DNA from: Eublepharis macularius
Taxonomy: Eukaryota; Chordata; Lepidosauria; Squamata; Eublepharidae
Direction: 5' to 3'
Assembly: GCF_028583425.1 (NCBI RefSeq)
Contig: NC_072800.1
Span: 6,585,001 to 6,649,000 of the forward strand
Length of the DNA: 64,000 bases
Shown here: positions 1 to 61,550 of the stretch, in pieces
How positions within the stretch are numbered: the first letter of the stretch is position 1
Layout: each line of letters opens with the position of its first letter
Notes under the pieces: model-generated
What the model saw: only the letters and a program-made list of their open reading frames with translations
The model's database searches: none
What the model was told of the DNA's origin: nothing
Program-made: the position numbers and the translations under genes

Positions 1-1
1 G

Positions 2-697
2 GTGAAATTTCTCTACTAGGGGCTTGGTTTGGCATTCGGGCGTCTGTTGAACCAGTATCCAATCAGGTGGGCCATGTTTGGCTAGGTCTTCCTCTTTTAC
101 AATCCAGGTCAGGTTCTCCCAGCGTTCTATAGCAAAGGAGAGAGTTGCGCCTGAAGGGGGCGTGATAGTGACCGATGCAGATTCAGTGGTAGTGGTGCCT
201 AGTAGGATGGTCATTCTAAAGGGGTCTCCTGCCTTCCATACTGCGGTCGACACTAAAATAACTTCACAGTATGGTCCGAAATCCTCAGTGACAAAGGGCG
301 AGGTTTCGACATTGGCAGGGGTGGTATATTTGTCTACCACCGGGACTGCGGTGGGGGCTGGCCTGATACGGGGAAGAAACATACAAGGAATCGGAGCGAG
401 AGGTGAAACTGTATCGGTAGGCGAGTAACATACTAATTCTTGAGACAGAGTTTTTACTCCTACACATAAAATAACAAGCTCTGGGGGTCGGATCCACTGC
501 TCTTCGCAACTGCGGAAGTTAGTGCGATCCATGGGGGTGGTCATATTAACCTGCTGCACAACTTTGCAGACCATCATTTCATTTTCTGCTAGTGTATTGA
601 TGCATCTCCAGTGTGGGTAGGGCATTAATTTGGACGGGCGTCCCTCTATTAGGGTGCCTGCCAGCACGAGCAAACACAGAGTAACCAGGTGCCTCAT
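2..697 (-). CDS. Env-like / secreted glycoprotein, N-terminal part (partial)
   Basis: An uninterrupted frame of 232 codons starts at ATG 697-695 and is still open at the left edge of the window. Residues 2-19 form a hydrophobic signal peptide, followed by a region with many cysteines (about residues 32, 44, 64, 78, 90, 105, 144, 222) and two N-glycosylation sequons (N51 and N195). That profile fits the surface subunit of a retroviral envelope and the position downstream of gag fits too. A candidate splice acceptor (pyrimidine stretch and AG, about 732-719) lies just upstream, as expected for a spliced env mRNA. I do not recognise the family. It could instead be a captured host secreted gene. 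Furin site, fusion peptide and transmembrane segment would all lie outside the window. Confidence 0.5.
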   Translation of the reverse strand, partial: MRHLVTLCLLVLAGTLIEGRPSKLMPYPHWRCINTLAENEMMVCKVVQQVNMTTPMDRTNFRSCEEQWIRPPELVILCVGVKTLSQELVCYSPTDTVSPLAPIPCMFLPRIRPAPTAVPVVDKYTTPANVETSPFVTEDFGPYCEVILVSTAVWKAGDPFRMTILLGTTTTESASVTITPPSGATLSFAIERWENLTWIVKEEDLAKHGPPDWILVQQTPECQTKPLVEKFH

Positions 698-2388
698 CTC
701 CTGGCCTTCTTTTCCTTTCTGTAGTGAAAATATCCTGGGGAAACCTGCGGATATAAGTACAGGCTCCCTGAGTTTCTTGCAGCAAAATAAATGAAGTAAA
801 GCGGGGAAAAAGAGGGAGGGCGTTTTTCTGCCAGCACTGTTTATTAAGCGGGGTTCGAACGAGAAGTCCCGGAGCATTAAGCGAGCCTTCCAGCTTGTTG
901 CTCTGGGGGACTCCTATGCGGAGGCTTCTTCCTAAAGCATGTATATTTCAGGGAGGACGTCTTTGCGTCGGGCAAGGGTCGGCCGTGCGTTAGGCGGGAT
1001 TATGCAAACTCGCCCCAGGGGTCCCTGGGTGCCTAGACTATGTGGCCTTCAGGTGCCCCTTGCTCGGTGGTGGGCTCCTTTTATTTTGCGGGCTGAGAGC
1101 TATCGGTCCGACTCGGCCTGGCCTTGCCGTTTTAAAAAGAAAAAAACTAGAGAGTGGTTTCCATTAACTATAAGGGTTGCTGCAGACGGGGGCCCTCGCT
1201 TTAATTTTCAAAAATAGGCCTTCGTCATATATTTGCAGGACAACCAATTTTTGGAGGGACTCCCTCGGGAGGCCCCATCTTCTAGTTAAAAGAAAAAAAG
1301 ATACACCAGGCAAAAAGAAGAAAAATACACTGAGCAAGAAAAATACACTGAGCAAAAAGAAAAATATAAGGAGCAAGAAGCATACGGGTGTGAGGTACTT
1401 TTGGGTTGCCCTCACCTGGAAGGCCTGGCATGGCTTCATTAAAGCTTCAATATGTCTCCCCCCCTTCTTTTCCCTTATACGGTACGGGCAAGGGAAAAGA
1501 TTACGTGGGGCGAGCGGCTGCTGGCGGAAAGGGCCGAAGTGAGGCCGAGGGCGTTCGGCAGCGTTTATCGAAAAGCGGCGGAGGCGGCCGAGATCTGCCG
1601 GCGCCACTGGGTCTGGGTTATTCGGGGGTCATCTTGGCGCGGGGGATCCTGGCTATGTAAATGAGGCACGCTGCCCCTTGTGCGTGGCGAACGCACCTCA
1701 ATAACATATTCCAGAGGGCACATATTTACAAAATACTGGCGGGTCTTTTACTTTTGCACTAAAGCGTACTAGATGGTGGCGCCGTATAGCAACTCACCAT
1801 GACGAGTATGAGCATTAGTAAAAGAGGGGGTTGACGGGCTGGACGGGGGTTTCCTTCAGGGGAGGCACGGCCCTCAAAGCCAAAGCCGACCATCATGCGA
1901 AAGCGTGGGTCTGGCAGGTGAGACCCCGAATCTACGTAGATGTGGGATCTTCACCAGCACGGCGGGTGATATATTTTCGAATACAGGGATCACCTTTTTT
2001 GGTGGTTCCACTATGTTCGAAAGAATGTATGCACCTTTGGGCTAAAGCCTCTCCAAACACTTTCACACACAGCAAATCTCTTTTGCCTGTGCAATTTTTT
2101 TTCCGAACATGCGGCTTAAAATCCAATTAAGAATCACTCTCGGTGGTGGTCCTATTTGGCTTTGGTTGCCGTGTCTTCCCCAAGGGTCCCAACTGTGGGG
2201 CCCGCCTAATGAAGTTAAAGAATAGAACTGACAAGAAATAACAAAAACACTAAATGATTATATGAAGCCAAGTTGGCTTTTTACATCTAATCTCAAAAGG
2301 GAATTGGGCTTCAGGTTCACACACACATAAAGTTAAGACTGCACAACGAAAAGGGACGGGGGCTGCAGGGACTTGAACTCAAGTCTCC
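698..2388. other. ERV interior without recognisable genes
   Basis: About 1.7 kb between the second ERV ORF and the env-like ORF. No minus-strand frame has motifs of protease, RT, RNase H or integrase. At 1296-1385 there is an A-rich run of short imperfect repeats (unit around AAATACACTGAGCAAG), which makes long hydrophobic shadow frames on the other strand. The stretch may be a scar of pol loss or an unrelated insertion; I cannot decide. Confidence 0.4.
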
Positions 2389-3606
2389 TTAAGGTGGCTT
2401 TTCCACTCCTGGTTCCAATCCCTTCCAAATTCTGACAGGGAACCAGTGATTACATTTATTTGGGCTTACTTCAGCCTGGGAGAGGACAAAAGGAAGAACT
2501 GGGAGGAGGTCAGAATCCTGGTCTGGCCAGTTTTTCCACTTCAATGAGGGGTGGGGGTGTAGCGCTGAGTGGGAACAGTTTGTTTCAGACGCTGCTAGCA
2601 ACTGGGATTCTTTCTGGAATTTGCTCACTTGCATTATTACATTCCTGACTGCACTTACTGCTGGAGGCTCTACCTTTTCATTAAGTTTTGGACTTGAGCC
2701 TTTTAAAACGTGGAAACAGTTGCACAAATGTCTCTGAATTAGCTCAAGCACTACTAAACCACACAGGCACAACATGAGGTTTTCTTCAGGGGTGTTAGTC
2801 AGGGAAGGCTGACAGAAAGCTATTTGGTGTGTAGTTGCAAGCACTGAATTCTCAAAGCAATTTAATTCTTTTAAAGGAACTGCATTTTTACTTTTGTTTA
2901 CCTGTTCTTCAGGATCATTGCAAGAGGGCACAGTCACGGTGGGCTGTGTATAGCTTGGCTGGGGGCATTCTATGGGAGCCAAGCCAATTGCTTGGGGAAT
3001 GACTTTTAAACTCTGTACATGCTCAGAGGCTAAAGTGAATTCTGGCTTCTTGGGCGTGGGGGCTGAGGCAGAAATTGGAGGCAAAGGTGACTGACTACTC
3101 ATTTCACTGCCTTGGGTGGGGGCTGGAGCTGATTCAATCACTGATTGTTCCTCTAAAGTCTTTATTCTGGCCTCAGTGAGTCTCTGGGATTCCAGGAGAT
3201 TTTGCATCAGGGTTTTTAAAGTGGCGGTTTCATTATTCTGGTTCTCCAGCAAAGTCTGCATGCTAAGGAATTTATTGTGGAGCTGCTCTTTCTCTATTGT
3301 GCAAGCTTTTAATTTTTCTTTTAATTCCTCATTCTCTTTATTAAGATCATTTATTTTTAAATTCTGTTCCCTATTTACACTTATGAGCTCCTGAATTTTA
3401 TTTTGCAGCTCTGCCAGATTTCCTTTAGAGGTGTCTGGCAAAGTTGGTGCTGGGTTCTGGGTGTGAATCACCCTTTGGAATCTTTCCTTCTCTCTTTTAA
3501 GTTCCAAGCTATTTTTAGTTCCCGGAGGTCGAAGGCTAGCCTCAACCTTTGGTTTTCTCCCACAGGCAGTTAAGCGGGCAGAATAATGTGTGACCCCCGG
3601 GCATCC
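2389..3606 (-). CDS. Second ERV ORF, in frame with Gag after UAG; coiled-coil protein of unknown function
   Basis: The frame is the same as that of the Gag-like ORF and is open immediately after the Gag UAG; the first internal methionine is at 3507, from which it has 372 codons. About residues 25-125 (from that Met) form a heptad-rich coiled coil dominated by E, K, L, N and Q; then come a Ser/Pro/Thr-rich linker, a short Cys-rich hydrophobic patch, and a tail without recognisable domain. Protease, RT and integrase signatures are absent. Either it is produced by read-through of UAG as a Gag extension, or it is an acquired segment fused where pol should begin. I do not recognise a host relative. 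Confidence 0.5.
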   Translation of the reverse strand, partial: GCPGVTHYSARLTACGRKPKVEASLRPPGTKNSLELKREKERFQRVIHTQNPAPTLPDTSKGNLAELQNKIQELISVNREQNLKINDLNKENEELKEKLKACTIEKEQLHNKFLSMQTLLENQNNETATLKTLMQNLLESQRLTEARIKTLEEQSVIESAPAPTQGSEMSSQSPLPPISASAPTPKKPEFTLASEHVQSLKVIPQAIGLAPIECPQPSYTQPTVTVPSCNDPEEQVNKSKNAVPLKELNCFENSVLATTHQIAFCQPSLTNTPEENLMLCLCGLVVLELIQRHLCNCFHVLKGSSPKLNEKVEPPAVSAVRNVIMQVSKFQKESQLLAASETNCSHSALHPHPSLKWKNWPDQDSDLLPVLPFVLSQAEVSPNKCNHWFPVRIWKGLEPGVEKPP

Positions 3607-5562
3607 CTATTGGAAAAAGGGGTTCCCAGCTGGTGGAGGCTCTTCTCTTACTGTAGCCACTGGCTGTGTATGTTGGGGAGGGCCATTCCTAACGATGTCT
3701 AGAAGGGCAGAGAGAAGGACTGAAGTGGGCTGCTGGTGGAAGAGCTCCATGTCTGCCCCATGATCCTTGAGCCGCTTCCAGAGTTCCCAGCGGAGTGAGT
3801 CCCTGGCTGGCGGCGGGCCACCTAGGTCAGAGGGCTCCTCATGGTCCTCTGGCTGCGGTCTCCAGGAGTCAGCCTGACTTGGGGGAGGGTAGACCTGGTG
3901 ATTGTATGTGTGCGGTGCCCGAGGGGGCGGGGGTGCCGAGGGCAGCGCAGGTCTCCAGGGCTCAGAGGGTACCTGTGGGGAGGAAGGGTAGTGACTGGGG
4001 GTGGGCACAAAGGTTACTCCTGGACGGGAGTCCCTCTGGCTGCGGCCCCGAGTGAAGCTACCGCTTCTCCCACGCAAGATGCCACCTCTAGGCTCTGAGT
4101 ACGAGCTATGCCCTTGAGGCCGATATTGGGAGTGGGGACCATGGTTGGCATACGTGACTGTGTTGATGGGCTCACTCTCTTTCCTATGGGAGGCCGGGGA
4201 TTTCACATGGCGGATGGCTCCGGTCTCTCGCAACAGGCCAGCAATGCTCCTGATGCGAGCCTCCAGGTCTCCCCATGAGATGCTCCCGGGCTCCACTCCT
4301 GCCAGTGCTAGGCGGGTAGTGCTATTGAGACCATCTATAACAGCTCTCCTAAACTCCAGTTCATCGAAGTCGGGCACATCGCTTGCATCTAGGTCCACTT
4401 CGTCTGCTAGCTCAGCGAGAAGCTGCTTCCTAGCTAAGTATGCCTCTGGGTCCTCTCCGGGCTTTTGGGACTCGGCAATATACAGGGCCTTTAAACTCTT
4501 GGTGGGCCATAGGAATGCGCACAGTTCTTTGATGGACCCATACTGACTGCGGGTGGCTAGCCTTCGATTGGACACGTAGGCATTAAGGGCTGTGACTATT
4601 TCGGGGCTGGCGCAGTGGCGGGCCAGTTGGGCCACATCGGAACCACTAGCGGAGGGCTGGGAGGTGGTCACATGGGTGAACCACTGGATAGCCGTGTCTC
4701 GGTTCAAGGGCCCCATGCGGTCCGCTATGGCTTGGAGCTCATCGGGCCTCCAATTGCGGGTTTCCTTAACGACCCGGTCTGTCTTTTTACCGTCCTCGTC
4801 CATGGATACAATCTCTTTCGTAGCTATCGGATGGAGGGGCTGTGGGGCTTCCTCGGGCTGGGGCGACTGAGATGCCCAGCTATCCTTACTATCTTCTGGG
4901 AGGGCCAAGAGGGCGGAGGGGTGCACGGCGGAAATTACGGCCTGTTGCATCCCCAAGTGTCGCTTTAGGGCCTCTAGCTCCCTCTTACAAGCTGAATGGT
5001 CCGCGGCTGCGGTTTTGGACTGGTTATGGTCCGCCATGAACTGGGCGGCATGGGTGAGCTTAGCAATCTCCTCTTGTCCCTCAGTTAATGCATGCTCAGC
5101 CATATCGGCACGAGCGGTGGTCGCTTCAGCCTTGTGCTGAGCGTCCTGGAGGGCAGTGGTCAGTCCTTGCTTCTCTAATATGAAATTGACGCGTTCAGCG
5201 CGCCACTCAACTGCTCTTCTCTCATACTCTTTTTCCTGTTCGGTTAGCTTAATCCTGAGAGTCTGGATTTCTAGGCGCAAGGCGTCCTGTTCTCGTTTGG
5301 ACCTCTCCTCTAGCTCCTCCTGCGTGGTTTGTAACTTACTAATTAGGGACACGCTGTCCTGCAGGGCAGTGAAAAGTGCCCAGGCTCCATATCTGTCCTT
5401 TTTGCTAGACCTAGGTTTCTCCTTGTCACAGAAGTCCTGGAAGGCGCTTCTAACTATCTGGAGTGGGTCGGGTCCCTTGAAGGAACCGGCTTCCCAAGGG
5501 CAATCTCCCTTCTTAACTAGCCACTTCTCCAGGCGGGGCACGGTGGGGTTTGCCCGGTACAT
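3607..5562 (-). CDS. gag: Retroviral Gag-like polyprotein (intact, 651 aa)
   Basis: The ORF is complete. Residues about 75-165 are a strong coiled coil. Residues about 260-450 look like capsid, with a motif resembling the major homology region at about 366-378 (Q-x3-GE-x5-Y-x2-R pattern: QKPGEDPEAYLARK). After that come an Arg/Gly-rich stretch (about 490-512, RGGILRGRSGSFTRGR) and a long Pro-rich tail. No CCHC zinc knuckle is present; the RG-rich segment probably substitutes for nucleic-acid binding, as GR boxes do in foamy virus Gag. It would form the virus-like particle. It ends in UAG followed by GGA, and the frame stays open downstream, which suggests read-through. Absence of any stop or frameshift across 1.95 kb implies a recent insertion or selection for the ORF. 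Confidence 0.8.
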   Translation of the reverse strand: MYRANPTVPRLEKWLVKKGDCPWEAGSFKGPDPLQIVRSAFQDFCDKEKPRSSKKDRYGAWALFTALQDSVSLISKLQTTQEELEERSKREQDALRLEIQTLRIKLTEQEKEYERRAVEWRAERVNFILEKQGLTTALQDAQHKAEATTARADMAEHALTEGQEEIAKLTHAAQFMADHNQSKTAAADHSACKRELEALKRHLGMQQAVISAVHPSALLALPEDSKDSWASQSPQPEEAPQPLHPIATKEIVSMDEDGKKTDRVVKETRNWRPDELQAIADRMGPLNRDTAIQWFTHVTTSQPSASGSDVAQLARHCASPEIVTALNAYVSNRRLATRSQYGSIKELCAFLWPTKSLKALYIAESQKPGEDPEAYLARKQLLAELADEVDLDASDVPDFDELEFRRAVIDGLNSTTRLALAGVEPGSISWGDLEARIRSIAGLLRETGAIRHVKSPASHRKESEPINTVTYANHGPHSQYRPQGHSSYSEPRGGILRGRSGSFTRGRSQRDSRPGVTFVPTPSHYPSSPQVPSEPWRPALPSAPPPPRAPHTYNHQVYPPPSQADSWRPQPEDHEEPSDLGGPPPARDSLRWELWKRLKDHGADMELFHQQPTSVLLSALLDIVRNGPPQHTQPVATVREEPPPAGNPFFQ

Positions 5563-6995
5563 CTTGCTTTCGTTTAAGGCTGATCACGGGGGAGGTTAAA
5601 GAGTGGATCAGCGACACCAGGGGTGGGGAGATTAAAGCTGCTCAAGGGTTTTAACAACTTCTTCCTCTCTATGTCCCTTTTGGGAGGTTTATCCTTCCCT
5701 CAGGTCCTCAAGGGTTTTTACCAGGGGGTTTTAAGGTTCTACTTTTAGGTTCACAAGGGGATTTTTAAGGGTCCTACACTCGGTTCTTCTCCACTGGGGG
5801 AGAAGGAAAATTCCTATTCCCGTTTCAAGCTTGCTTACAAGCCACGGGACCAGGAAAAGTTTACTGGCTCAGAAGGTGCTCTCAAGCTCTCTAAGCCCAA
5901 GAACCAAAAACGCTCAGTGCTTCCAAGCCTCTGCTCAGAAGCTAAAGCTCAGGGGTCTCCCAAGCCTATACTCGGAAACCAAAAAGTGTCTCCAAGCCTC
6001 TGCTCGGAAATTGAAGTGCTCCCAAGCCTCTGCTTAGAAGCTGCAATTAAGGGGTCTCCCAAGCCTCTGCTCAGGCAACCAGAAATGCTCCCAAGCCTCT
6101 GCTCAGAAGCCAAAATGCTCTCAAGCTCTCTAAGCCCAAGAACTAAACTCAAAGTGTCCCCAGGCCTCGTGCTCAGAGACAAACGGTTAAACTGTCTCCA
6201 AGCCAAGACCAAAAGACTAAATGCGCTCAAGGACTGCCTCTGCAAGTCCCCAAGCAAAAGTGCCCAGGAGTAAAGCTTACTGTACTCCCAAGCGAGGTGC
6301 GCTCAAGAGTTCTAACAACTCCCAAGCAAAAGTGTGCCCAAGAGTCCCACTGACTCCCAAGCGAGGTGCGCCCACGAGTCTGACTTAAAACTCGCAAGCG
6401 GAAAGGCGCCCAAGAGTCTAACTTAAAACTCTCAAGCACGGTGCGGCAGGCTGCCGCGGGGCTTCAGGAACCTGGCTTCAGATTCCCAAAGCTAACTAAC
6501 CAAATGGACTATCGATCCCTTCACGTTTCCTCCGGAGCGGGGATTGAAGCCTAAGTGCTGGCAGGAACGGGGTTTGGACGGGCTTAGGAGAGACGGGGGG
6601 AGGGCGGAAGAGAATTTTATATGTGCTGCTTCAGGATATATATAAATCTATAGAGCCTACTTCTGGGATCCCACCCACATAGACGCGTTTAGGCGGCCCG
6701 GAAGGTGGCCAGGAACTTCACCAGTTCAGAGGTCCTCACCCACAGTACACCGGTTATAACGGCTGGAGGGCCTCGCGGTGCACCACAAAAGGCAGGTAGT
6801 CCAAAGCTGGCTGAAGGAGGAAATGGGGAAAAGCCAACCCACAAGATAGAAATGCTCGCTAGAGCCACACACACTCACACTTTTAATTCCCTGAGCTAAA
6901 TTGCGCTCTTTACACTGAGGTCTGGAAAATTTTCCTCTAAGTCAGTTCGCCGAAGACACGCGTGTCGACTCACGTGTATTCACACGAACCGGGTT
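5563..6995 (-). repeat. ERV leader with two degenerate tandem arrays
   Basis: Between the primer-binding site and gag. On the + strand about 5868-6240 is built of imperfect units carrying CCAAGCCTCTGCTCAGAAGC, and about 6262-6450 of units carrying CCCAAGCGAGGTGCGC / AAGAGTCTAACTTAAAACTC. About 5640-5780 has a third looser motif (CAAGGGTTTTTA / AAGGGGATTTTTAAGG). Spurious frames through the arrays are not genes. Some 1.4 kb is long for a retroviral leader; packaging or translational functions are possible but not shown. Confidence 0.65.
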
Positions 6996-7014
6996 ATGCC
7001 CGCATTCTCCACCA
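6996..7014 (-). other. Primer-binding site matching tRNA-Ala 3' end
   Basis: The + strand reads ATGCCCGCATTCTCCACCA, which by my recollection of vertebrate tRNA-Ala(AGC) equals its 3' terminal 19 nt including CCA; the element sense strand is therefore its complement starting TGGTGGAG. It sits 6 nt from the LTR end at 7021, the expected place. Minus-strand DNA synthesis would be primed here. Confidence 0.7.
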
Positions 7015-7020
7015 GTAAAC

Positions 7021-7546
7021 TGTTACCAGAACTGCTCTTTATTATAATGGGGAATTAGCTGTAGCAGTCTGTAACTTTAAAATTAAGCGCGGATCATAAC
7101 CTATGTTTACGGAGGTCCCGATCCCAGACACTCTAGTGAAAAAGAGGCAGACAACGAATAAGTTCCAAACACGTGTATTGAGTGTAGCGTAAGCCTAGCT
7201 TGCACAATCATACAGAGAACATACAAGATCTAGGAAATACAGAGCAGGAAATACAGAGACGTTCGCATTAGCTGGTTCCCAACGATGATAGGGGGGGAAT
7301 ACTCACTTATCCTGGAGCGAAGCAGAGACACAGCAGCGAGGGTGGCCCAATGCCAGCACTGGAACCACAGACGGACAGCAAGGAGGTCTGGATAGGGAAT
7401 GGCCGAGGCACCGAGTGGTCTGGGAGACCAGCTTAAATACCCCAAAACGTACCCTGGGGCTGGTGCTGTACTTGGTGGTTCTCACAGTTTAAAACAAAGG
7501 GTCTAATGGGTCACTGAATGGCTAGGATGGGCCACTTTGGTAATCA
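7021..7546 (-). mobile_element. 5' LTR of the gag-bearing ERV
   Basis: The inner edge starts TGTTACC on the + strand (sense end GGTAACA) next to the primer-binding site. On the sense strand a TATA-like box (TATTTAAG) lies at about 7431-7438 and an AATACA poly(A)-like signal at about 7165-7175. The segment aligns by eye over its length with the solo LTR at 35021-35628, including the TATA and poly(A) positions and flanking blocks such as AACAAAGG(G/C)TC. The outer edge (TG start of U3) is uncertain; 7546 is the best CA on the + strand. Confidence 0.6.
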
Positions 7547-8451
7547 GATTGTGATAAGTGACACCTCAGGAAGAGGGGACAAAAGAGGGAGGGGGAAATC
7601 CGAGTGGGCTGAAAGGATGTTCCAGCGGACAGGGCTTGTCCTGATGTCATCAGCTTCTGGAATGCGGAGGTTTCTTTGAGATGCATTCTCTAAGTGCTTG
7701 GGATGGTCAGCACTTAGTTCTTCTCCGGGGCGGCTCCTAAGATATGCAGAGCGGGGCGAGGGGCTCTCGCTGCGGACGTGGTGTGCCCGCTTCGCCGAAA
7801 TGGCTTCTCAAAGCAGTCTTCTTCCCAGGGTCTTCTGGCTGCCTGAGAACATGGATGCCGGCTGGGCATGGCTGGGGCTGGATAGCAGGCTGCCCGGTAG
7901 CGAGGGCAAGCTCGGGGACCGACCCGCGGGAGGCTCCAGGCGGGAACTGACCAGGGAGCGCCTAGCCAGGCTCGCTGGAGGTTTCCCCGGCTGGCGCCCG
8001 GCTGCTAGCAGCGGCTTGGGCCCATATGAGGCAGGCTTCCATGGAGGCAGGGGGACAACACTTTAAAACACAGTCCAGAACAGGGAACAGGCACGGTCCG
8101 TGGCAGATGGCAATGCAGGCACGGGGCACACTTGTAACACAGTCCAAACGCACACTAGGAAGTCCAGATACAGGTCAGGGCAGGGCTGCCCAGAAAGAGA
8201 GTCCTTTGTGCAGTTAACCAAACATGGAGTCAGTAAACTACACAGTCTATAGCAGCAGCAAGGGTAATCGACACGCAAGCAGGAAACTGACACGTGTATC
8301 AGAACACACACGTGCAAAGCAGTCTTTGGTGCAGCAGTAAAACAGCAACGCAGGAAACTTTGACACAGTTCATAGCAGGCTTCGAAGCAGGGGAGGGGGC
8401 CTACTTGGCAACAAGATATAAAGTAGGGCATAGGCAATTACTGAAGATACC
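7547..8451. other. No recognised feature
   Basis: Flank of the ERV. About 7700-8030 is GC-rich. From 8040 to 8440 short motifs recur irregularly (for example ACACAGTCC, CAGCAG, GACACG), which looks like a decayed repeat. No gene is supported. Confidence 0.3.
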
Positions 8452-8463
8452 GTTGTCTCTAGA

Positions 8464-8687
8464 TCCAGAGGAGTTAGCCGTGTTAGTCTGTGGTAGCAAA
8501 ATCAAAAAGAGTCCAGTAGCACCTTTAAGACTAACCAATTTTATTGTAGCATAAGATTTCGAGAATCACGTTCTCTTCTTCAGATGCAACGTTCTCTTCA
8601 TCTGACGAAGAGAATGTGATTCTCAAAAGCTTATGCTACAATAAAATTGGTTAGTCTTAAAGGTGCTACTGGACTCTTTTTGATTTT
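8464..8687 (+). mobile_element. Short inverted dimer of Penelope tails with target duplication
   Basis: Two copies of the Penelope 3' tail face each other: the left half is the reverse complement of the right half (shared blocks GAGTCCAGTAGCACC... and ...GGTGCTACTGGACTC, TTTTATTGTAGCATAAG and CTTATGCTACAATAAAA). A 12-nt direct repeat GTTGTCTCTAGA flanks it at 8452-8463 and 8688-8699. There is no ORF. The design matches the inverted pseudo-LTR arrangement known from Penelope-like elements, here mobilised as a stand-alone non-autonomous unit. Confidence 0.8.
8602..8638 (+). ncRNA. Hammerhead-ribozyme-like core, decayed
   Basis: CTGACGA (8602-8608), then a 6-bp stem (GAGAAT/ATTCTC), then AAAA where GAAA is required, then a small stem with TTAT loop. 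The lost G at the conserved G12 position predicts no activity. A second core in the opposite orientation lies in the left arm (CTGAAGA at 8583-8577, GAAA at 8560-8557). Confidence 0.5.
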
Positions 8688-8975
8688 GTTGTCTCTAGAG
8701 AATGACTGATGAGCTTGTGAAATGCAGTACAGGATGCTTGTCTCATCTCTGCATGACAAGCTACACTCACCCACATTTCATCACTCATGAGACAAGCTAC
8801 ACTCACCCACATTTCAGTTTCAGGAACAGAGATGATATTAATCCTCAGTCCATTGTATTCCAGAAAAACCACTTTGACTGCATGATCAAAATGTGGACAC
8901 AAAATCCAAACACAAAATAGCAGATTTCCCTGAGAAATACTGATCAATGGGTATACAAAACAATAAAATAACACT

Positions 8976-9095
8976 GGTCGTTTTCACACGTCTTAACCGT
9001 TGCGCCACAAAACGGAGTCATGATGGGAAATCACACCACGTTGTTCCATGAGTTTTGCGCGATTTTGCACAACGGTTAAGATGCGTGAAAATAGC
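8976..9095. mobile_element. Hairpin MITE
   Basis: Terminal inverted repeats of about 27 bp with few mismatches (GGTCGTTTTCACACGTCTTA at the left, and its near complement ending TGCGTGAAAATAGCC at the right). Length about 120 bp and no coding capacity. I could not fix the target duplication. 18781-18897 (GCCGTTTCCACAC...) may carry a distantly related end. Confidence 0.55.
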
Positions 9096-18760: not shown

Positions 18761-20687
18761 GGACTTTTGGAGCAAATTTGGGCCGTTTCCACACTACTCA
18801 CCTTCATCCGGAACGGGGCGCAACATCACCAAAAAAATGTGGAAGATAGCGTCTTCTCGTGCGAGTTTTGTGCGACGTCGCACAAAACAGCTGTAAATAG
18901 TTGTTTTGATACCAATAAAAATTAAAATTAAAAAAAGACAAGCCAGCCAGGACAGATTAGATGTGTATGCATTTGGCCCCCAAACAGCTGTAGCCATGAC
19001 TGAGGCAGCAGCCCTATCTACACTTACTTCAAAGTAAGCATCATTTAACACCACACGGCTTCAATGGGATTAAATACACCTCGTCTTGCACTTTTAAGTC
19101 CCACAGAATGTTTTGGTATCAATAAGACTTAATGCCAATTAACTTTATCTGCTTGGAGCATAGTTTTCTGAGAGTCTGGGTATATGAGTCTGGGACAAGA
19201 ACATTCACCAAAAAAAAGCTTCCCAGACTCATATACCAGACAAAAGATTGACATTTCCACGTGAGACCAATCAGATGGGAGGGAACTAAAAGAAAAACAA
19301 AGCAGAACATGCTGTTCTCTGACAGGACTCCATGTGAATTCTGAAAATATAGAGATATTGGCACCTGGAGATGCCGAGAAATTAGCAGTCTGGTGACATG
19401 TTGTACAGACAGGTAATCTGAGGGCATGTGCACAACTTTTCCCCATTTAATACCCCGCAAAGATTCTTTGACTTTCTGTCAAATTCCTGTCCATGGGAAG
19501 AACCATCACAAACCTTTTCCTAATAGCACAAGGGGAAACTGCCAACCCACTGTGCAGAAAGACATTTTAGATCTTCTCATTCATCTATCACAAATACCTG
19601 CAAAGCATGCCTGGAGAAGGCACGAGTACTCTAGCAGGAGCTCTGAAAAATACTTCTCATTTGAAAGGGCGTGAGGCAAGAAGAGAGAATCTCCCAAAGG
19701 AAACAGCGAGGAGGAGGAGTCAGGTGGCACCCCCACCTTAGACAAGGAGAAGCCGCTTACTGTCAAGAGAGTTACACATACAGACAAAGAGACATGCAGC
19801 ACATCGCCCCTCCCCCCTCAGTGTCCAGGCATGTTGAGTCACCTGTTGCAACACTGAATACCCTACTGTGCCCGCTTTGTAATGTTTCTTGTTTTCTTGG
19901 TTGTCAAATGCAAACCATTTTGCCTCTTCTGCCATTCTACCTTCACTTTCCTTTCTTGGCTTGGTAAAAATTCCCAGTATATAATGAGACCTTTTGTGAA
20001 CATTTGAAGGGTGGAACAAAACTTGCCTCTGCCGTCTGGTAAGTGAGAATTTTAGTTGCCTATAAAACTAGGATGTTTTGTCCTGTTTTTCTGAAGTCCA
20101 TAAAGGATGATTCCTTTGATAAGGGGTGTCATTCCAAAGAATTTCATCCAAAGTGGATGGAAAAGAAAAGTGACAGCTGAAAATGTGTTTTGCATTGAAT
20201 CCCATGGAAACAACAACAAATAAAAAACCTAATGGCAAAAATGACATATAATAAAAAATCAAACAAAGCTTTTAAAAAATAAAATGAACTAAAATTTATA
20301 TAAAAAATACTGTTCAAGATACCTCTAATCTCTAATGAATTTGGGTGTGAAGCACAGTAACAACCAGTAACAGATGGCATAAAGAGTTTGCTTACTTTCT
20401 ATTTCAGTCCCTGTTTCTATTTCAGTCCCTGTCTGTTTCAGACACTAAGCACATGCATTTTATTGAGGCACGTGCACTTGCACTTGCACGCGCACACACA
20501 CGAAGAAAAAGAGAAGCCTACAGGTTTCTTAATATGAATACCAGAACTTGCCTGCATTCAAATATCCTAGATCAGATCATATTCTCATCTTGGATAAATT
20601 ATCATTTTCAGTTGATGACTACACGTTAATTTATTCTTTGCATTTGTGTTAAAGTTATCACAATGAGAGGATTTTCAATAGCTTTCT
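18761..20687. other. Anonymous AT-rich interval
   Basis: It holds a possible MITE end (18781-18897), a hairpin (19174-19241), and an unnamed stretch with a purine/CA-rich patch (20460-20505). No gene is supported. Confidence 0.3.
19174..19241. repeat. Foldback hairpin
   Basis: GTCTGGGTATATGAGTCTGGG at 19174-19194 is repeated inverted at 19221-19241 with one missing base; the 26-nt loop includes an A8 run. I see no larger element around it. Confidence 0.5.
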
Positions 20688-23282
20688 AAATGCAAAAAAC
20701 TGAACATTCTACCCAAGGGACTGCGTGTGAGGAACCCATTGGAATCCACTTACTACACAGACTACAGTGAGAAACTATGCAACACCTTATCCAGGAAACT
20801 CTTAATTCACCTCATTGGACTGATGTACAGCAAGCAACAATGGATCAAGCAAGAGATCTCTGAACTAGACTCTTCCATGAAAAACAATCCCTCTGCACAG
20901 ACCAGGAACTGGCAGATGTTTACCAAAACCAGAGAAACTATTTATTGCACACTACTTACTGAATTACAGAACAAGAAGGAGAAGAAATTCTCAAAACTCC
21001 TGCATGCAACAGGGAACAAGAACACTTTGGATCCACCTAGCAACATTATCAACCTCTCCAGCCACAAAGTGAGCCCAGCAGAGGAATCTGTCCTCTCACG
21101 TGGACTATCTGTTTGCCCAGCTGGACCCACAAAAACCATACAACTTTGTGGAGACCTGGAGGCCTATTTTAGACGCCTAAGACTGAAAGAATTCTTCAAC
21201 TACTCTGCTGAACAAAATGATGAACAAAGCACTGAACATACACCATCACAGCAGCAATCACCCTCCCAAACCAGCAATATGTAATCATCGTTACAAAACT
21301 CCAGAAAAAAGAATTCCACATGGACACCCCCTGAGGGCTGGAACTCCTCATTGGACTTTTACATTGAATGCTTCCGTCGACGTACCCAAGCTGAGATAAT
21401 TGACAAACAACAACACCTAAAGCAGAACCTCAGCCATGCAGAAAGAGATGCCATAAACAGCCTCCAAAATAATTCTGGTATCGTAATCAAGGAAGCTGAC
21501 AAAGGCGGAGCAGTTGTCATCATGGACAAACAAAACTACCTACAAGAAGCAGAAAGACAACTCTCCAATACAATATTCTATAAAATACTACCTTCTGACC
21601 CTACGGAGCAATACAAAAGAGAACTCAATAAAATATTAAAGACTCTCCCTGTGGACATACAAGAATGCATCCATACGGACACACCCCAGGAACCACGACC
21701 AGGAAGATTCTACCTACTACCCAAAATCCATAAACTAGGTAACCTGGGACGCCCCATTGTTTCAGGAATAGGCACCATCATAGTAGGAGTCTCAGGATAC
21801 ATGGACTCTATCCTCAGGCCCTATGCCACCAGCACACCCAGCTATTTACGGGACACCACTGACTTCCTCAGGAAAATACAGTCCATTGACAACCTACCAG
21901 ATGACACCATCCTAGCAACCATGGATGTGGAGGCTTTATACACCAATATCCCACATGCAGATGGACTGCAAGCCATAAGGAATATTATCCCGGACAAAAC
22001 CACAGCACACCTCGCCACTGAACTTTACCACTTCGTACTCACTCACAATTACTTCAAATTTGGTGACAGCTTATATCTACAGGTTAATGGCACAACCATG
22101 GGCACACGCATGGCACCACAATAAGCTAACATATTCATGGCGGACTTGGAGCAACGCTTCCTCAGCTCCCATCCACTGGAACCACTACTATACTTAAGAT
22201 TCCTGGATGACATCTTCATCATTTGGACCCATGGGAAGGAAGCCCTTAAGAGATTTCATCAGGACTTCAACAACTTTCACCCTACTATCAACCTGAGCCT
22301 GGACCACTCTACACAACAGGTACACTTCCTGGACACCACTGTACAACTACATAATGGACGGATAAATACCACCTTATACCTGAAACCCACAGACCGATAC
22401 TCATATCTATATGCCTCCAGCTACCACCCTAAACATACCACCCGGTCTATTGTCTACAGCCAAGCTTTACGTTACAACCGTATCTGCTCTCATGCTCTTG
22501 ATCGAGACTCCCACTTAAGAGATTTACAACAAGCATTTTTGGGACTACAGTACCCACCAAATGAAGTGAGGAAACAAATCAATAGGGCCAGACTAGTACC
22601 CAGAAACAGCCTGCTCCAGGACAAACCTAAAGGAACTAACAACAGAACACCATTGGTTGTCGCCTATAGTTCCCAGCTCAAACCCATCCAACGTATCATC
22701 AGTGAGCTACAACCCATCCTGGAAAATGATACCTCTCTCTCAGAAGCCCTGGGTGGAAGATCTTTCCTTGCCTACAGACAGCCCCCCAACCTGAAACGAC
22801 TTCTCACTCACAATCATGAATCGGCCAGCAGAGTCACCAGCACAGGTACCAGGCCCTGCAACAGACCCAGATGCCAGCTCTGCCCTTATATCTACCCAGG
22901 GAATACAATTACAGGACCCAATGTCATCAACTACACTGTCTCTGGCTCTTACAGCTGCTCTTCTTCCAATGTGATATATGCCCTCATGTGCCAACAATGT
23001 CCTTCTGCTCTGTACATTGGACAAACCAGCCAGCCTCTATGCAAAAGAATAAATGGACACAAATCTGACATTAGAAATGGCAACGTCCAGAAACCAGTGG
23101 GAGAACACTTCAATCTACCAGGACATTCCATCAAAGACTTAAAGGTCACTGTAGTTCAACAGAAACCTTTCAAAAACAAAATCCAACGGGAAGCTGCTGA
23201 ATTGGAATTCATATATAAATTTGACTCTGTCAAGCTGGGACTGAATAGGGACTATGAATGGTTATCTCATTATCACAGGTAA
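20688..23282 (+). pseudogene. Penelope RT-GIY-YIG polyprotein with two in-frame stops
   Basis: The frame is continuous over 865 codons except TAA at 21282-21284 and TAA at 22122-22124. N-terminal part: INLSSHKVSPAEESVLSRGL (about 21045-21110), typical of Penelope. RT: KEADKGGAVVIMDK (21490-21530), LPKIHK (21718), ATMDVEALYTNIPH (21915-21955), GTTMGTRMAPQ cut by the second stop, then LRFLDDIFIIWTHG (22196-22235) with the catalytic DD. C-terminal GIY-YIG domain: IYALMCQQCPSALYIGQT ... KRINGHKSDIR (22976-23075), preceded by a Cys-rich CNRPRCQLCPYI block. The product would be a target-primed retrotransposition enzyme. No frameshifts, so inactivation looks recent. Confidence 0.9.
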
Positions 23283-23304: not shown

Positions 23305-23493
23305 GATCAAGGGGAGTCCAGTGGCACCTGGCGTGGGCTTTCGAGGATCGCAGTTCTCTTCGTCAGAAGCATCTGGCGGGGAGAGCTGTGATTCTCGAAG
23401 GCTTGTGCTGCAGTGGAATTGGTTGGTCTTGGAGGTGCTACTGGACTCTTTTTGATTTTGCTACTACAGACTAACACGGCTAACTCCTCTGAA
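23305..23493 (+). mobile_element. Inverted Penelope-tail dimer inside the Penelope 3' region
   Basis: Flanked by the 15-nt duplication CCTTTACAGAAGCAA (23290-23304 and 23494-23508). The left half runs GGAGTCCAGTGGCACC... inverted; the right half runs to GGAGGTGCTACTGGACTC and ends in CAGACTAACACGGCTAACTC. Its hammerhead-like core (about 23370-23410) is GC-mutated (CTGGCGG). The insertion removes nothing from the host element. Confidence 0.85.
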
Positions 23494-23629
23494 CCTTTAC
23501 AGAAGCAAACTGATCTCCATATCAGAAGGAGCTGTTTGCATCTCCATATCAGAAGGAGTTGTTTGCATCTACTCCGCCCTCCCCTCTCCTCCTCTATATC
23601 TGACCAGTTTCTTTTGGCCCTCCATGCAT

Positions 23630-23667
23630 CTGACGAAGAGAACTGTGATTCTCGAAAGCTTATGCTA
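23630..23667 (+). ncRNA. Hammerhead-ribozyme-like motif in Penelope tail
   Basis: CTGACGA at 23630-23636, one extra A, stem II GAGAA (23638-23642) with TTCTC (23649-23653) around loop CTGTGA, GAAA at 23654-23657, stem III A-G-C / G-C-T around TTAT (23657-23666), and A at 23667 as the predicted cleavage-site nucleotide. Type I hammerheads are established in Penelope-like elements. The extra base between the CUGANGA block and stem II departs from the textbook core, so activity is not assured. Confidence 0.55.
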
Positions 23668-23984
23668 CAATAAAATTGGTTAGTCTTAAAGGTGCTACTA
23701 GACTCTTTTTGATTTTGTCATTTCTTTAGCTTTTATCATCTACCTTATATCAAATTGTCCTTATCATGGAAATGAACATCAAAGCTAAAGTAACTGCTTC
23801 CAGTTATTAGTCAGGAAAGATCAGAATGGTCAGGGTGCATAAGAAAAGGTGAAATGAACTTCAGCCCAGGATTAATACCAAAGCTTGTAGCCCTAAAGGG
23901 TGGTTTTGGGTTTATAGTCAATACAGGATCAGAATTGGTAAGGTGCTGCTGCTGGCTGGCAGAGGGAAAAGAGAAAGAGAGGCC

Positions 23985-26499: not shown

Positions 26500-27260
26500 T
26501 TGGGTATGCTTGTTAATTGTGAGTTAACTTATTTCTAGAGCTATGCCCTGACTTGTTATCTACCCAGGTGCAATCCAAGAAATCCTTACAGTGTGAGAAT
26601 GGGAGACCCAGGGCCAAGGACATTCCATCCAATTAAGCTTATCTGGACTCAGTTTCGGTTCTTAGGAGGGAGCTGGTCAATGATTTGGGGGCGTGGTGCA
26701 GCTGCAGAGCAGCAGTCCTCTTACGTCATTGCAAAGCTCTGATTGGTCAATCAGATCCTGCCCCCATGTTGTTAGGGAATATGGGATAAAAATGGTCAGT
26801 TCAGTTATGCCTTTGTCCGGAAATTGGGTTTGGCATGGATGCTTATCCGTGGCCATCTGGGTTTACAACTACGTCTTGAAAGCGGGAAACGTTGATGCTG
26901 GAAGCTCTGTTAGGCATCGACTCACGTCAGGGTATGTTTGAGTATTAGGTTAATTGGTGGTGGAGAGTGCCCTCAAGTACCTGGCAAGAGACTCACAGAG
27001 GTGGTTAGGCTCTGCAACCCTGGTCTCCGTTGGAGGTCTCCCATCCAATTACTAACCATGGCCAACCCTGCTTAGCTTCTGAGATCTGATGAGATCAGGC
27101 TCACCTGGGCTATCCATGTCAGAGCATTAGGTTAATTAGCTCTTTGTACTTTTCCTTTTCTTTCTGCACAATCTCTAAAATTAGTATTTTGTTCACCTTC
27201 TTAATAAATATATTTTTTATTTATGTGATGTTTCATTGGTTTATGACGTCAGTGTGAAAA
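26500..27260 (+). mobile_element. Possible LTR interrupted by a 5S SINE
   Basis: Promoter-like words (CCAAT-type GATTGGTCAATCAG at about 26731-26745, ATAAAAATGG at about 26785) and a poly(A)-like AATAAATAT (27203-27211) are spaced as in an LTR. I found no second copy in the window and no clean ends. Tentative. Confidence 0.25.
26956..27125 (-). mobile_element. 5S-Sauria-type SINE, copy 1
   Basis: Minus strand reads a 5S-rRNA-like head (GATCTCATCAGATCTCAGAAG, TTAGTAATTGGATGGGAGAC, close to the 5S rRNA internal promoter) followed by the SINE tail ending CTCTCCACCACC. Flanked by ATTAGGTTAATT on both sides (26944-26955, 27126-27137), a 12-bp target duplication. Confidence 0.9.
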
Positions 27261-35634: not shown

Positions 35635-36257
35635 GCTGCAGGGGTGTGTGGATGCAAATGCAAAACATGTTCTAGCGCTGCACAAATGCGATAGTTTGTC
35701 AGTGAATTCCACCGGAGCTAAGTTGATGGATTTTAGGTGGGGACTGTACTTTCCCAGGAACAACTGTATAAACGTATGAATGTCATTCAATTAGCTCCTC
35801 AATCAAGGACAGGAGATCTCATCATGGAAGAAGGGAAAGGAATGTGTTAAGTGGGGATGACTCTGTGAGACCTTTGTTGCACATCTATGGGGCTGGTGGG
35901 ACTGCAAATCCAATCACCTCTTAATCACTCTGTATTCCTGTGCTGCATTCCATGCATGCCGTGCATGCCGTGTTCTCCCAGGTGGGATTCAGCAACTGTT
36001 GGAGGTCCTTTGGTGGCAATACAGCAGCCATTTTAAATCCAGAGGCCTGGTGATATTTTTAATATCACAAGCAACCATATTAAAACGGCTATTAAAATGG
36101 ATGAGGCTGGGCCAATTGCTTACAAGTAGACTTCTGGCTTATATTACACACCATAAAAGTATACAGGGAACATACATCTAACCCATCAACTCTACCCTCT
36201 GCTTACATGAATCTAGCCTAATGTTGGCACAGAGCATATTTGTGTACAAAGCCTATG
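35635..36257. other. No recognised feature
   Basis: AT-rich non-coding sequence with a small CATGC-repeat patch (35950-35972). Confidence 0.3.
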
Positions 36258-37436
36258 GCTGCTATCTCACAGACGATCTCTGCAGGCAGCTGGATCGGGG
36301 CGGATCGGCGCTGCTGATTTTATTGGATCTGTCAGCAGCATTCGATATGGTCGACCATGACCTTCTGACCCACCACCTCGCCAATGTGGGGATACGGGGG
36401 ACAGCACTGCAGTGGCTAGTCTCCTTTCTCCACGATTGGGGACAGAGGATGGCACTAGGGGAGAGGCTGTCGTCTCGTAGGCCACTAGAATGTGGTGTGC
36501 CACAAGGAGCGATACTCTCCCCATTATTGTTCAATATCTATATGCACCCCCTCGCCCAGCTGGTGCGGAGTTTCGGGCTTGGGTGTCACCAATATGCAGA
36601 TGACACCCAACTTTATCTGTTGATGGACGGATGGCCCGGATTGGCCCCAGATGTCTTGGAGCGTGTTTTTGAGGCTGTGGCTGGATGGTTGAGACAAAGT
36701 CGACTGAAACTGAACCCTACAAAGATGGAGATCATGTACTTGAGTCGTGGAAATGTGGATCCGGGACGCCAGCTCCCTGTGCTCGATGGGGCAGTGCTTA
36801 CACTGGCTCCAAGAGTTAGGAGCCTGGGGGTGATTCTTGATTCCTCCTTAACAATGGAGGATCAGGTCTCGGCGGTTGCCAGGTCCTCTTTTTACTATCT
36901 CCGTCAGGCCAGGCAGCTTGCCCCGTATCTGTCATCTCGCGACTTGACTACAGTGGTCCAAGCAATGGTCACCTCTAGACTGGACTACTGTAACGCACTC
37001 TACACTGGGCTTCCCTTGAGCCTGATCCGGCGGTTACAACTGGTGCAGAATGCAGCGGCGAGAGTTATTACCAGAACACCAATATGGGAACATATAACAC
37101 CAGTACTGCGCCAGCTGCATTGGCTACCGGTGGAGTACCGAATCAGGTTCAAGGTTTTGGTACTAACCTATAAAGCCCTAAGTGGACTGGGACCTTCGTA
37201 CCTGCGGGACCACCTCTCCCCATATGAGCCCCAGAGGACTCTTCGCTCGAGCGACAAACATCTGTTAAAGATCCTGGCCCTAGGGAGGCCCGCCTAGCAT
37301 CGACCAGGACCAGGGCGTTTTCAGCCCTGGCCCCAACCTGGTGGAACGCTCTGTCTTGCGAGACCAGGGGCCAGCAAGACTTGTTATCATTTTGCCGGGC
37401 CTGCAAGACGGAGCTGTTCCGCCAGGCATATGGGTG
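36258..37436 (+). pseudogene. L2 RT, C-terminal half
   Basis: LILLDLSAAFDMVDHDLL (motif A; 36310-36365), CGVPQGAILSPLLFNIYMHPL (motif B; 36490-36555), HQYADDTQLYLLMDG (motif C with catalytic DD; 36588-36630), LKLNPTKMEIMYL (motif D) and the C-terminal RLDYCNALYTGLPLSLIRRLQLVQNAAAR. The frame is open for about 345 codons to 37297; a one-base frameshift near 37285 shifts the last about 48 codons (RTRAFSALAPTWWNAL..., ELFRQAYG) to another frame. Unusually well preserved. Confidence 0.85.
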
Positions 37437-38052: not shown

Positions 38053-41000
38053 AGCAGTGGTTCATAAACTTTATGGAGTACCCAGGCTTCTGGTCTTGGG
38101 GGACTTCAGTGTCCATGCTGATGATGCTACCTCCTCACGGGCCATGGACCTGATAGCCTCCATGGCGGCATTAGGACTCTCCCAGTTTGTATCGACACCC
38201 ACACATTGAGCAGGACACATGCTGGATTTGATCTTTGGGGTGGGGATACAGGTGGATCTGGATGAACCTATAACAGTGCCATGGTCAGACCACCTTGTCC
38301 TGAGGGCTTGTCTGGGCACCATGCCCCCCCACTTGGGCAACGAGCTGATTTATGCTCGCCTGTGGAGTCAAATGGATCCAACTGGATTCCAGAATGCTCT
38401 GCGGGATCTGATGCCCCCTGGTGGCTCATTGGATGAGCTGATAGAGGACTGGAATGTCCATCTCTCTGAAGCTATCTACGAGATTGCTCCCCATCGCCCT
38501 CTCTGCCCCAAACTAGAGTAGCTCCTTGGTATACTGATGAGCTACGACAAATGAAACGGGAGCTGAGACGGCTAGAGCGAGTGGGCAGCGACTCCATGAT
38601 GAAGTGACAAGAACATCTTATAGGACATTTATGAAGGCCTATGAACTGGCAGTGAAAGCTGCAAGGAGAGACTACTATGCAGCTTCCATTGCATCCTCTA
38701 GTTCTCACCCAGCACAACTTTCCAGAGTGATTCGGTCTTTAACGTCCCTCACACATGGGACAAATAAAAATGTAAATTTGGTAATAAGCCGTGAGGCTTT
38801 TGGAGACTATTTTGCGGATAATATCTTGTCACTCCACCAGGATCTGTCCACCACGGTTGATGCAGTATGTGTACTGGAGGCCCCTTGGTCATCCTCAGGG
38901 TTGATATTAGATCAATTCAGGCCACTCTCCCAGGAGGAGGTAGGCAGGGTCCTGCATGCTGTGAAACTACCACATGCCCACTGTACCCGTGCCCATCATG
39001 GCTGGTGAAAACTGGTGGTGATGGGATTCGGGCACCATTAGCTGACATCATTAATCTTTCTCTGAGTTCTGGGTTTTTTCCAGACTCACTGAAGGAGGCA
39101 GTGGTGCAGCCCTTATTAAAGAAACCATCACTGGATCTTGTTGATCCAGCCAATTACCGCCCAGTTTTGAATAATCCATTCCTGGGTAAGGTAATTGAGA
39201 GGGTGGTAGCAGAACAGCTGCAGGTATGCCTGGATGATGCCTCTATCCTGGATCCATTCCAATCCAGCTTCAGGCCTGGCCATGGTACAGAGACAGCTCT
39301 GGTCGCCCTCACAGATGATCTGCGGCGACACCTGGACCAGGGTGGGTCGGCACTGCTGATACTTTTAGATCTTACAGCAGCATTCAACACAGTTGATCAT
39401 AATCTTCTGAACATCGGCCTTGCCAATGTGGGGATTCATGGAACAGCTCTGCAATGGCTGAACTCCTTCCTTCGCAATCGGGGACAGAGGGTGGCACTCA
39501 GGGAACAGAAGTCCGCTCACCACTGTTTGGTATGCGGCGTCCCTCAGGGGGTGATTCTTTCCCCAATGCTATTTAACATCTATATGCACCCCCTTGCCCG
39601 GTTAGCCTGCAGCTTTGGGTTGGGTTGTCACCAGTATGCAGATGACACCCAGCTCTATCTGCTGATGAACGGCCAGTCTGATCTCACTCTGGATTCCTTG
39701 GCCAACGGTCTTGAGGCTGTGACGGTATGGTTACATCAGAGTCACCTGAAACTGAATCCCCTGAAGACGGAGGTTCTGTGTCTGGGTCGCGGGGCAATTG
39801 AGCTGGGGACCCGGCTCCCAGCCCTCGACAGGGCCAAGTCAAAAGAGTTTATTGTCTGTAGCCATAGGCTGTCACAATTCACCAAACATTGACTAATAAA
39901 CAATTAAGTCCCTCATCACAGTTTATATAGGTTACTAAAATTAATTAAAACAATACAGTATGCCGAACTATCCCAGGAGTCACGAAACAGCCTCATTCAG
40001 TACCACCTTAGATCTTATCTTTTTGGCTGCGAGTGCAAACTGAGAGACTCTATAGGACACATGATTATCAGTGTCAGATGACAAAAACACAATCTTCTCA
40101 ATTTCAGAATACGTGTTTGTGACTGATTGGATTCTGGCCAAGAATTTAGCTCTGGGTACACTATATAATGGACAATAAAGTAGGTAGTGGGAAAGGTTCT
40201 ACACTGTAGGTAATCCACAAATGCAGGTGCGATGTTCCATAGGGATGTGAGAATAACGCCCTGCCAAAGAGCTGTCTGCATCATCTGGAAGCGCAGAGCA
40301 GTGAAAGACACTCTGAGGTTGTAATGGCTAGATACTGGCTAGATAGGGAGATCTTAAATGGTCAAATTTGATTAGTTTATACCAAGGAACTGCCTTAGAT
40401 TTTGATATTGATAGCCGATCCATCACTGCATCTGACTTATAGATCCACTCCTTAAGTGGGAGGTTGTTGGCTGAGACCCCTAACAGGTCATCTGGGATGG
40501 TATACCTTTGGCAAATGGTGGATAGAAAGCCAGGGCATGTGGGGTCTTTGGATAGTAAGTAATTTACTGATTGGCAACTTAAGGAGTCAGAACTGGAAAA
40601 TTTGATCCTTTTCCAGTATTTTAAAACTGCAAGGTGCACCTGCGCCCTAAGGGAGGGGAGTCCTGTTTCGGCCCTCATCAGGGTGGCAGGCGCGCCTTTG
40701 GGTAAAGCCAAAATCCGTCTCAAGAACTGGTTCTGGATTGCCTCAAGGCTGGTTAGAATGTCTTCCTTCCAACCCCACACTTCAGCTCCATATAGGAGGT
40801 GAGGAACTACCTTGCTCTTAAATAATTTCAGTGCTGGATCTATCAGTCGACCCCCCCTTTGTATAAAAGAAATGTATGATTGACCCTACAATCCTTGATG
40901 CTGAGGATTTAACCGACGCAAGATGTATCTTCCAATTCAGAGTCTCTTTAAAGGTTACCCCTAGATATTTAAAGGAGCTGCATTGTTGGATTGGGTTGCC

Positions 41001-45918: not shown

Positions 45919-46133
45919 AAACGCATACTGATAGATAATGGTGAGCCATCAGGATTCTGCTTCAAGAAATAAAGCAAAATTTAATAACTTAAGGGAGGGA
46001 AAATATTTGTATAAATAAATTGTATAAATAAATTGGTATTTAACTAGACATGGGAAAAAATCCTGTTCTATCTGAACTGACAGGCCAAGCATTTAAATGA
46101 AATCTAAATCCATGTGACATATATTAGGAAAAG

Positions 46134-46322
46134 ATCCAGAGGGGTTAGCCCTGTTAATCTGTAGATGCAAAATAGTAGAGTCCAGTAGCGCCTTTAAGAC
46201 TAACTAACTTTATTGTAGCATAAGCTTTTGAGAACCATAGCTCTCTTCAACAGATGCATAGTCAGAAAGCTTATGCTACAATAAAGTTGGTTAGTCTTAA
46301 AGGTGCTACTGGACTCTTTACC
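46134..46322 (+). mobile_element. Inverted Penelope-tail dimer with target duplication
   Basis: Same design as 8464-8687: left half inverted (GAGGGGTTAGCCCTGTTAAT, AGTCCAGTAGCGCC), right half forward (AAGCTTATGCTACAATAAAG ... GGTGCTACTGGACTC). Flanked by ATATTAGGAAAAG on both sides (46121-46133, 46323-46335), 13 nt. Confidence 0.85.
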
Positions 46323-61296: not shown

Positions 61297-61550
61297 GTGC
61301 GTAACTTGGTGGTAGTCATAATCTCTAACTTTTCTTTATTAAAATGCTTTCTGTTTAAATTTTATCTCCATAGGATGCATAGTAGATCTGCTTTCTTCAC
61401 ATTTTTCTTTTCACTAAGAAAATTTTCCCTGATTTTAACTACTGGACACCAAATAATATTTAAGAACTTAATTTGCCCATACTGTTGTAGAATATTTGTC
61501 CCCCCAACTATATAAATGACTTGGCATTATATAAACTTCATTGTCGTGGC

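Follow-up and report, generated by a model that had tools for sequence, protein, structure and literature searches.

The element and its Gag-like reading frame

A 64,000-nucleotide stretch of Eublepharis macularius contig NC_072800.1 (positions 6,585,001 to 6,649,000), here called the window, carries on its minus strand a retrovirus-like element whose Gag-like open reading frame (ORF) is followed, directly behind an amber stop codon and in the same frame, by a long open extension. The parts of the element are, in order, a long terminal repeat (LTR)-like stretch, a candidate primer binding site, a leader, the Gag-like ORF, the UAG codon, the extension, about 1.5 kb of further sequence and an env-like ORF. 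The Gag-like ORF (3607..5562) begins with an ATG at 5562, runs for 651 codons (5562-3610) and ends in the amber UAG at 3609-3607; the next codon is GGA, and the Gag frame then stays open for 405 codons (3606-2389), up to a TAA at 2391-2389. This succession of a 651-codon Gag, UAG, GGA and some 405 open codons, described beforehand in a sequence-only reading of the region, is borne out and lies on the minus strand.

The Gag-like protein has a major homology region (MHR) at residues 364-382. Aligned to the MHR of OVEX1, whose sequence has been printed (PMC2717909) and served as the query, this segment scores 54, a value reached by none of 5000 shuffles (maximum 49); the same query scores 24 against the extension and 32 in the next best of the 537 reading frames of at least 50 residues in the window. 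The spacing pattern of the MHR occurs once in Gag and also in 59 of 5000 shuffles. A single PSAP motif is present at 541, together with a GR-rich stretch near residues 490-515, and no match to the CCHC zinc-finger pattern was found in the protein. According to the parts of the literature used here, a zinc finger is likewise absent from OVEX1 Gag, while some relatives have one (PMC2717909, PMC4299795), and OVEX1 Gag has a known N-terminal coiled coil (PMC2717909). In the present Gag, a simple heptad scan detected no coiled coil, and the Pfam matches are weak and below the cut-off. Pfam and PDB sequence searches with Gag yielded nothing useful, the single PDB match having an E-value of 0.59, and the alignment-free structure prediction of the capsid (CA)-like piece was of low confidence (mean predicted local distance difference test, pLDDT, 41). 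In its strong MHR match, its lack of a zinc finger and the in-frame ORF behind the amber stop, the predicted protein resembles OVEX1 Gag. The element is not assigned to the foamy viruses (spumaviruses) in view of its MHR, which spumavirus Gag is described as lacking (PMC2717909).

Upstream of Gag, the leader (5563..6995, about 1.4 kb) contains degenerate tandem repeats at about 5877-6423, with periods of about 99, 69 and 33-35 nt. It is preceded by a candidate primer binding site (6996..7014), presumably of the tRNA-Ala type, as it appears to correspond to the 3'-terminal sequence of tRNA-Ala in vertebrates. The LTR-like stretch (7019..7720, limits approximate), with TATTTAAG at 7439 and AATAAA at 7043, is a weak candidate read from the sequence in one copy; no direct repeat that could represent a second LTR was found in 1-9000, and the 3' end of the element lies beyond the window. 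Downstream of the extension, codon positions are flat across 914-2388, and the stretch 914..2210, also devoid of codon-position signal, is the most CpG-rich part of the element (observed/expected, o/e, 0.79). The last ORF (1..697), starting with an ATG at 697 and running past the window edge, is putatively Env-like, a designation drawn from its position, hydrophobic signal-like start, Cys residues and two N-glycosylation sequons alone.

Coding capacity and predicted structure of the extension

Stop codons are absent from the extension in the Gag frame, against 36 and 35 in the other two sense frames, and the same is seen in each of its quarters of about 101 codons, with none in the Gag frame and 7-12 in every other sense frame. 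None of 5000 sequences simulated with a first-order Markov model at the composition of the extension was open throughout, the latest first stop falling after 134 codons, and a chance ORF is rejected on these counts. An internal duplication of Gag was likewise discarded as the source of the extension, as no match was found (best BLASTP E-value 4.4).

When predicted without an alignment, residues 62-157 of the extension form one long helix, with block means of 94-97 at residues 71-150. The pLDDT is below 50 in 250 of the 405 residues, and residues 161-405 are rich in Pro and Ser. Pfam matches are weak, the best (E 0.0011) falling on the helical piece and all being below the cut-off; they are taken as coiled-coil likeness. 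No Pfam enzyme domain is present in the extension, and the previous description of a coiled-coil, Ser/Pro-rich segment devoid of enzymatic motifs agrees with these predictions.

The first ATG in the extension comes no earlier than codon 116, so that translation of its helical part is most easily explained by ribosomes reading through the Gag UAG, the putative route of its expression. The first 86 nt behind the UAG (3521..3606), Gag-like in composition, are predicted to fold into a stem of 10 bp that encloses two hairpins, begins 5 nt past the stop and closes at 3521. The stability of this structure corresponds to a z of -2.54, with 2 of 200 shuffles as stable, and to a z of -2.4 to -2.7 in a second computation.

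Search for pol and for homologues

All three minus-strand reading frames of 1-3606 were scanned for the protease D-T/S-G, reverse transcriptase (RT) YxDD-type, LPQG and integrase HHCC-type patterns, and none of the four was found. Of the 23 stop-free minus-strand pieces downstream, 9 were compared with Pfam, including those searched in the pre-env stretch 914..2210, and gave no pol domain (best E 0.23, to an unrelated family); the ORF at 913-2 gave none either. A native pol in another frame was set aside, as neither Pfam domains nor catalytic patterns reveal one, in searches which a heavily decayed pol would escape. Gag, the extension and the env-like piece had no homologue among 5.8 billion proteins or among viral contigs, and no PDB sequence matched the extension or the env-like piece; all these collections are expected to be poor in vertebrate repeats.

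A compositional break on both sides of the segment

The CpG content changes sharply along the element. The o/e ratio is 0.47 in the LTR-like stretch, 0.53 in the leader, 0.54 in Gag and 0.55 in the 86 nt after the UAG (4 CpG), falls to 0.11 in the remainder of the extension (2389..3520, 6 CpG), which comprises the long helix, the Pro/Ser-rich low-confidence part and the TAA, and is 0.29 in the stretch 3' of the TAA (2211..2388, 2 CpG in 178 nt); it then rises to 0.79 in 2210-914 and is 0.57 in the env-like piece. The remainder of the window has a value of 0.28. The block 3520-2211 as a whole (0.14) is within the range of the surrounding genome, where 25 of 269 windows are lower, whereas the two halves of Gag and the pre-env stretch are near the top of that range, with 259, 263 and 267 of the 269 windows lower. 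A two-rate segmentation of CpG versus TpG/CpA sites returned one poor block at 3769-2211 (13 of 241 sites, against 237 of 908), with a gain of 30.0 compared to a maximum of 13.4 in 200 permutations, the latter run on a coarser grid. A GC change point was placed at 3520, with 3593 nearly as good. The segment is therefore compositionally foreign, a genome-like CpG-poor block inside CpG-rich viral sequence, with its downstream edge at 2211; the part behind the TAA, 2211-2388, is possibly captured 3' untranslated sequence.

This contrast bears on the proposal that the extension was not captured but belongs natively to a retroviral lineage without pol, in which a two-part Gag is ancestral. Such an origin would fit the Gag, extension and env-like frames all being open together, and is nevertheless very improbable in view of the strong difference in composition between the extension and the other parts of the element. 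Moreover, the OVEX1-type relatives described so far in the sources used all carry pol (PMC2717909, PMC4299795).

Origin of the segment

Capture of the segment is supported by the lack of a detectable pol and by the break in composition on both sides. As the block is CpG-poor and open for some 375 codons, it is best read as a long-resident coding sequence captured by the virus. The element is accordingly interpreted, with a probability of about one half, as a defective endogenous retrovirus (ERV) with an OVEX1-like Gag, in which a coding segment of foreign origin, in the simplest case part of a host mRNA, has taken the place of the pol region. The sequence-only reading had left the choice between a pol replaced by a captured segment and a distinct pol-less, trans-mobilised lineage with a two-part Gag; of these, it is the former which gains from the undetected pol and the two-sided break.

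Under this interpretation, the captured piece, probably acquired during reverse transcription, would consist of a host coding sequence minus its start, complete with its native stop codon and followed by part of the 3' untranslated region, while the amber codon of Gag would have been retained with about 86 nt behind it. Stop-codon read-through would yield the captured part as an infrequent C-terminal addition to Gag, the extended Gag would co-assemble with normal Gag, and the enzymes would be supplied in trans by an intact relative, which may have mobilised the element.

Several observations weigh against this interpretation. The purine-any-pyrimidine (RNY) count and codon usage, scored with the Gag and env-like sequences as the training set, favour the frame of the extension only in places, and least in its last third; since these measures do not single out the frame, the claim that the extension is coding rests on the absence of stops. 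The predicted stem is not exceptional, with equally low z values in 15 of 278 windows of the element (1 of 75 in Gag), and the point where this GC-rich stem ends is not independent of the GC change point; walleye dermal sarcoma virus and snakehead retrovirus are reported, in the account drawn upon, to have no detected pseudoknot at that site. Furthermore, the left boundary of the block is only loosely placed, between 3769 (CpG) and 3517, with GC giving 3520 or 3593, and some 300-nt windows in the leader and at the 3' end of Gag are CpG-poor as well (0.27-0.35). No source gene of the extension was found in protein collections that are poor in vertebrate proteins, and no sister copy was seen, the element being known from the one copy in this window. 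Finally, the sole host exon compared has a CpG o/e of 0.45 and the repeat ORFs of the window range from 0.17 to 0.55, so that a low CpG ratio is not in itself proof of a host gene.

The values of these repeat ORFs would also suit a segment derived from an old retroelement ORF, e.g. the coiled-coil part of the Gag or ORF1 of another element, gained by recombination. A long helix is common in retroelement Gag and ORF1-type proteins. This origin is possible but rather unlikely: the segment is accompanied by neither an RT nor a Pfam repeat domain and has no second copy in the window, and its frame is intact over the full length, as would hardly be expected of most old copies.

The single copy seen is equally what a private rearrangement after integration would leave, with pol lost, the segment inserted at the locus and the in-frame arrangement accidental; once a coding segment had been joined, agreement with the Gag frame would be a one-in-three chance. 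This is considered quite unlikely: pol would have to be lost and the segment joined in an open, matching frame shortly behind the Gag stop codon, all without disrupting the predicted stem. If it were true, the element would be an ordinary relic.

The captured coding segment in a defective ERV could also belong to a wider design, a multi-copy, trans-mobilised ERV lineage in which a retroviral read-through signal is reused for a captured host coiled-coil protein, loaded at a low ratio into Gag particles. This extension of the argument is unlikely; if true, the lineage would represent a recoding device with a new cargo. A retrovirus that captures a gene usually loses one of its own, and the best-described non-autonomous ERVs have lost their ORFs. 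An element with a full-length Gag, its stop codon retained and a foreign open frame downstream would illustrate how gene capture and recoding can be combined, and would offer a natural example of cargo being loaded into Gag particles.

Other features of the window

Outside the element, a near-perfect inverted repeat at 8497-8688 (90-nt arms, 96% complementary, 12 nt apart) has similar copies at about 23337-23718, 46132-46319 and 57530-57621, and is a dispersed host repeat. Split RT-like and GIY-YIG-like frames at 20682-23279 on the plus strand follow a Penelope-like order, with matches below the cut-off (RVT_1 E about 0.01, GIY-YIG E 2e-4). Two further reverse transcriptase frames, at 36182-37294 (plus strand) and 40821-41639 (minus strand), match RVT_1 with E-values of 2.6e-26 and 5.9e-24 and are probably of the long interspersed nuclear element (LINE) type. 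A 5S rRNA-like match at 27008-27125 on the minus strand (44.2 bits, against a gathering score of 38) may be a gene, a pseudogene or a 5S-derived repeat. At 61099-61512 on the plus strand, an exon-like sequence matches human RPRD1B/CREPT over 61 residues (E 3e-19) and Pfam CREPT (E 2.4e-18).

Comparison with known systems

Among the open-licence papers listed, judged by title and the start of the abstract, no published element of the same design was recognised. The comparisons that follow hold for the portions of the cited papers on which they draw. A close likeness in layout is to OVEX1 of chicken and zebra finch, with SpeV and CrocERV37-39; the features in common are a Gag MHR, the lack of a zinc finger (in OVEX1, though not in all relatives) and an in-frame ORF directly after the amber codon (PMC2717909, PMC4299795). 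In OVEX1 and its relatives, gag, the amber codon and pol stand in one frame (PMC2717909), and the amber codon is followed by protease, RT, RNase H and integrase, whereas here it is followed by an ORF with no detected pol (PMC2717909, PMC4299795). OVEX1 also lacks typical LTRs, and no primer site has been identified in it (PMC2717909), whereas the present element shows an LTR-like stretch and a candidate primer site.

TERV of ruffed grouse is similarly a pol-less, defective ERV with a Gag-like protein and an env remnant; it has been classed as alpharetroviral by its LTR and Gag, and the account used does not mention an in-frame extension after Gag (PMC2717909). Foreign coding sequence in an ERV of a reptile group is exemplified by CrocERV29 (KIT ligand) and CrocERV31 (nectin3). 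Their inserts have been traced to these genes and are located between pol and env or in place of env (PMC4299795), while here it is pol that appears replaced.

The bovine ERVK[2-1-LTR] D-type, ETn and RecKoRV elements keep the element ends around a foreign central segment (PMC10924933), and the CpG-poor block is similarly placed here, between the Gag-leader and the pre-env-env parts. Portions of gag and env are retained in the bovine and koala cases; the three elements, which kept gag and env or pol portions, are reported to be complemented in trans (PMC10924933). The bovine D-type has no intact ORFs, and mobility has been shown for elements of this kind, whereas the element described here, read from one copy, has a full-length Gag with the foreign segment open in its frame. 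Central-swap and gene-capture ERVs as such are already known; the present element differs in having a foreign segment that is open in the frame of Gag.
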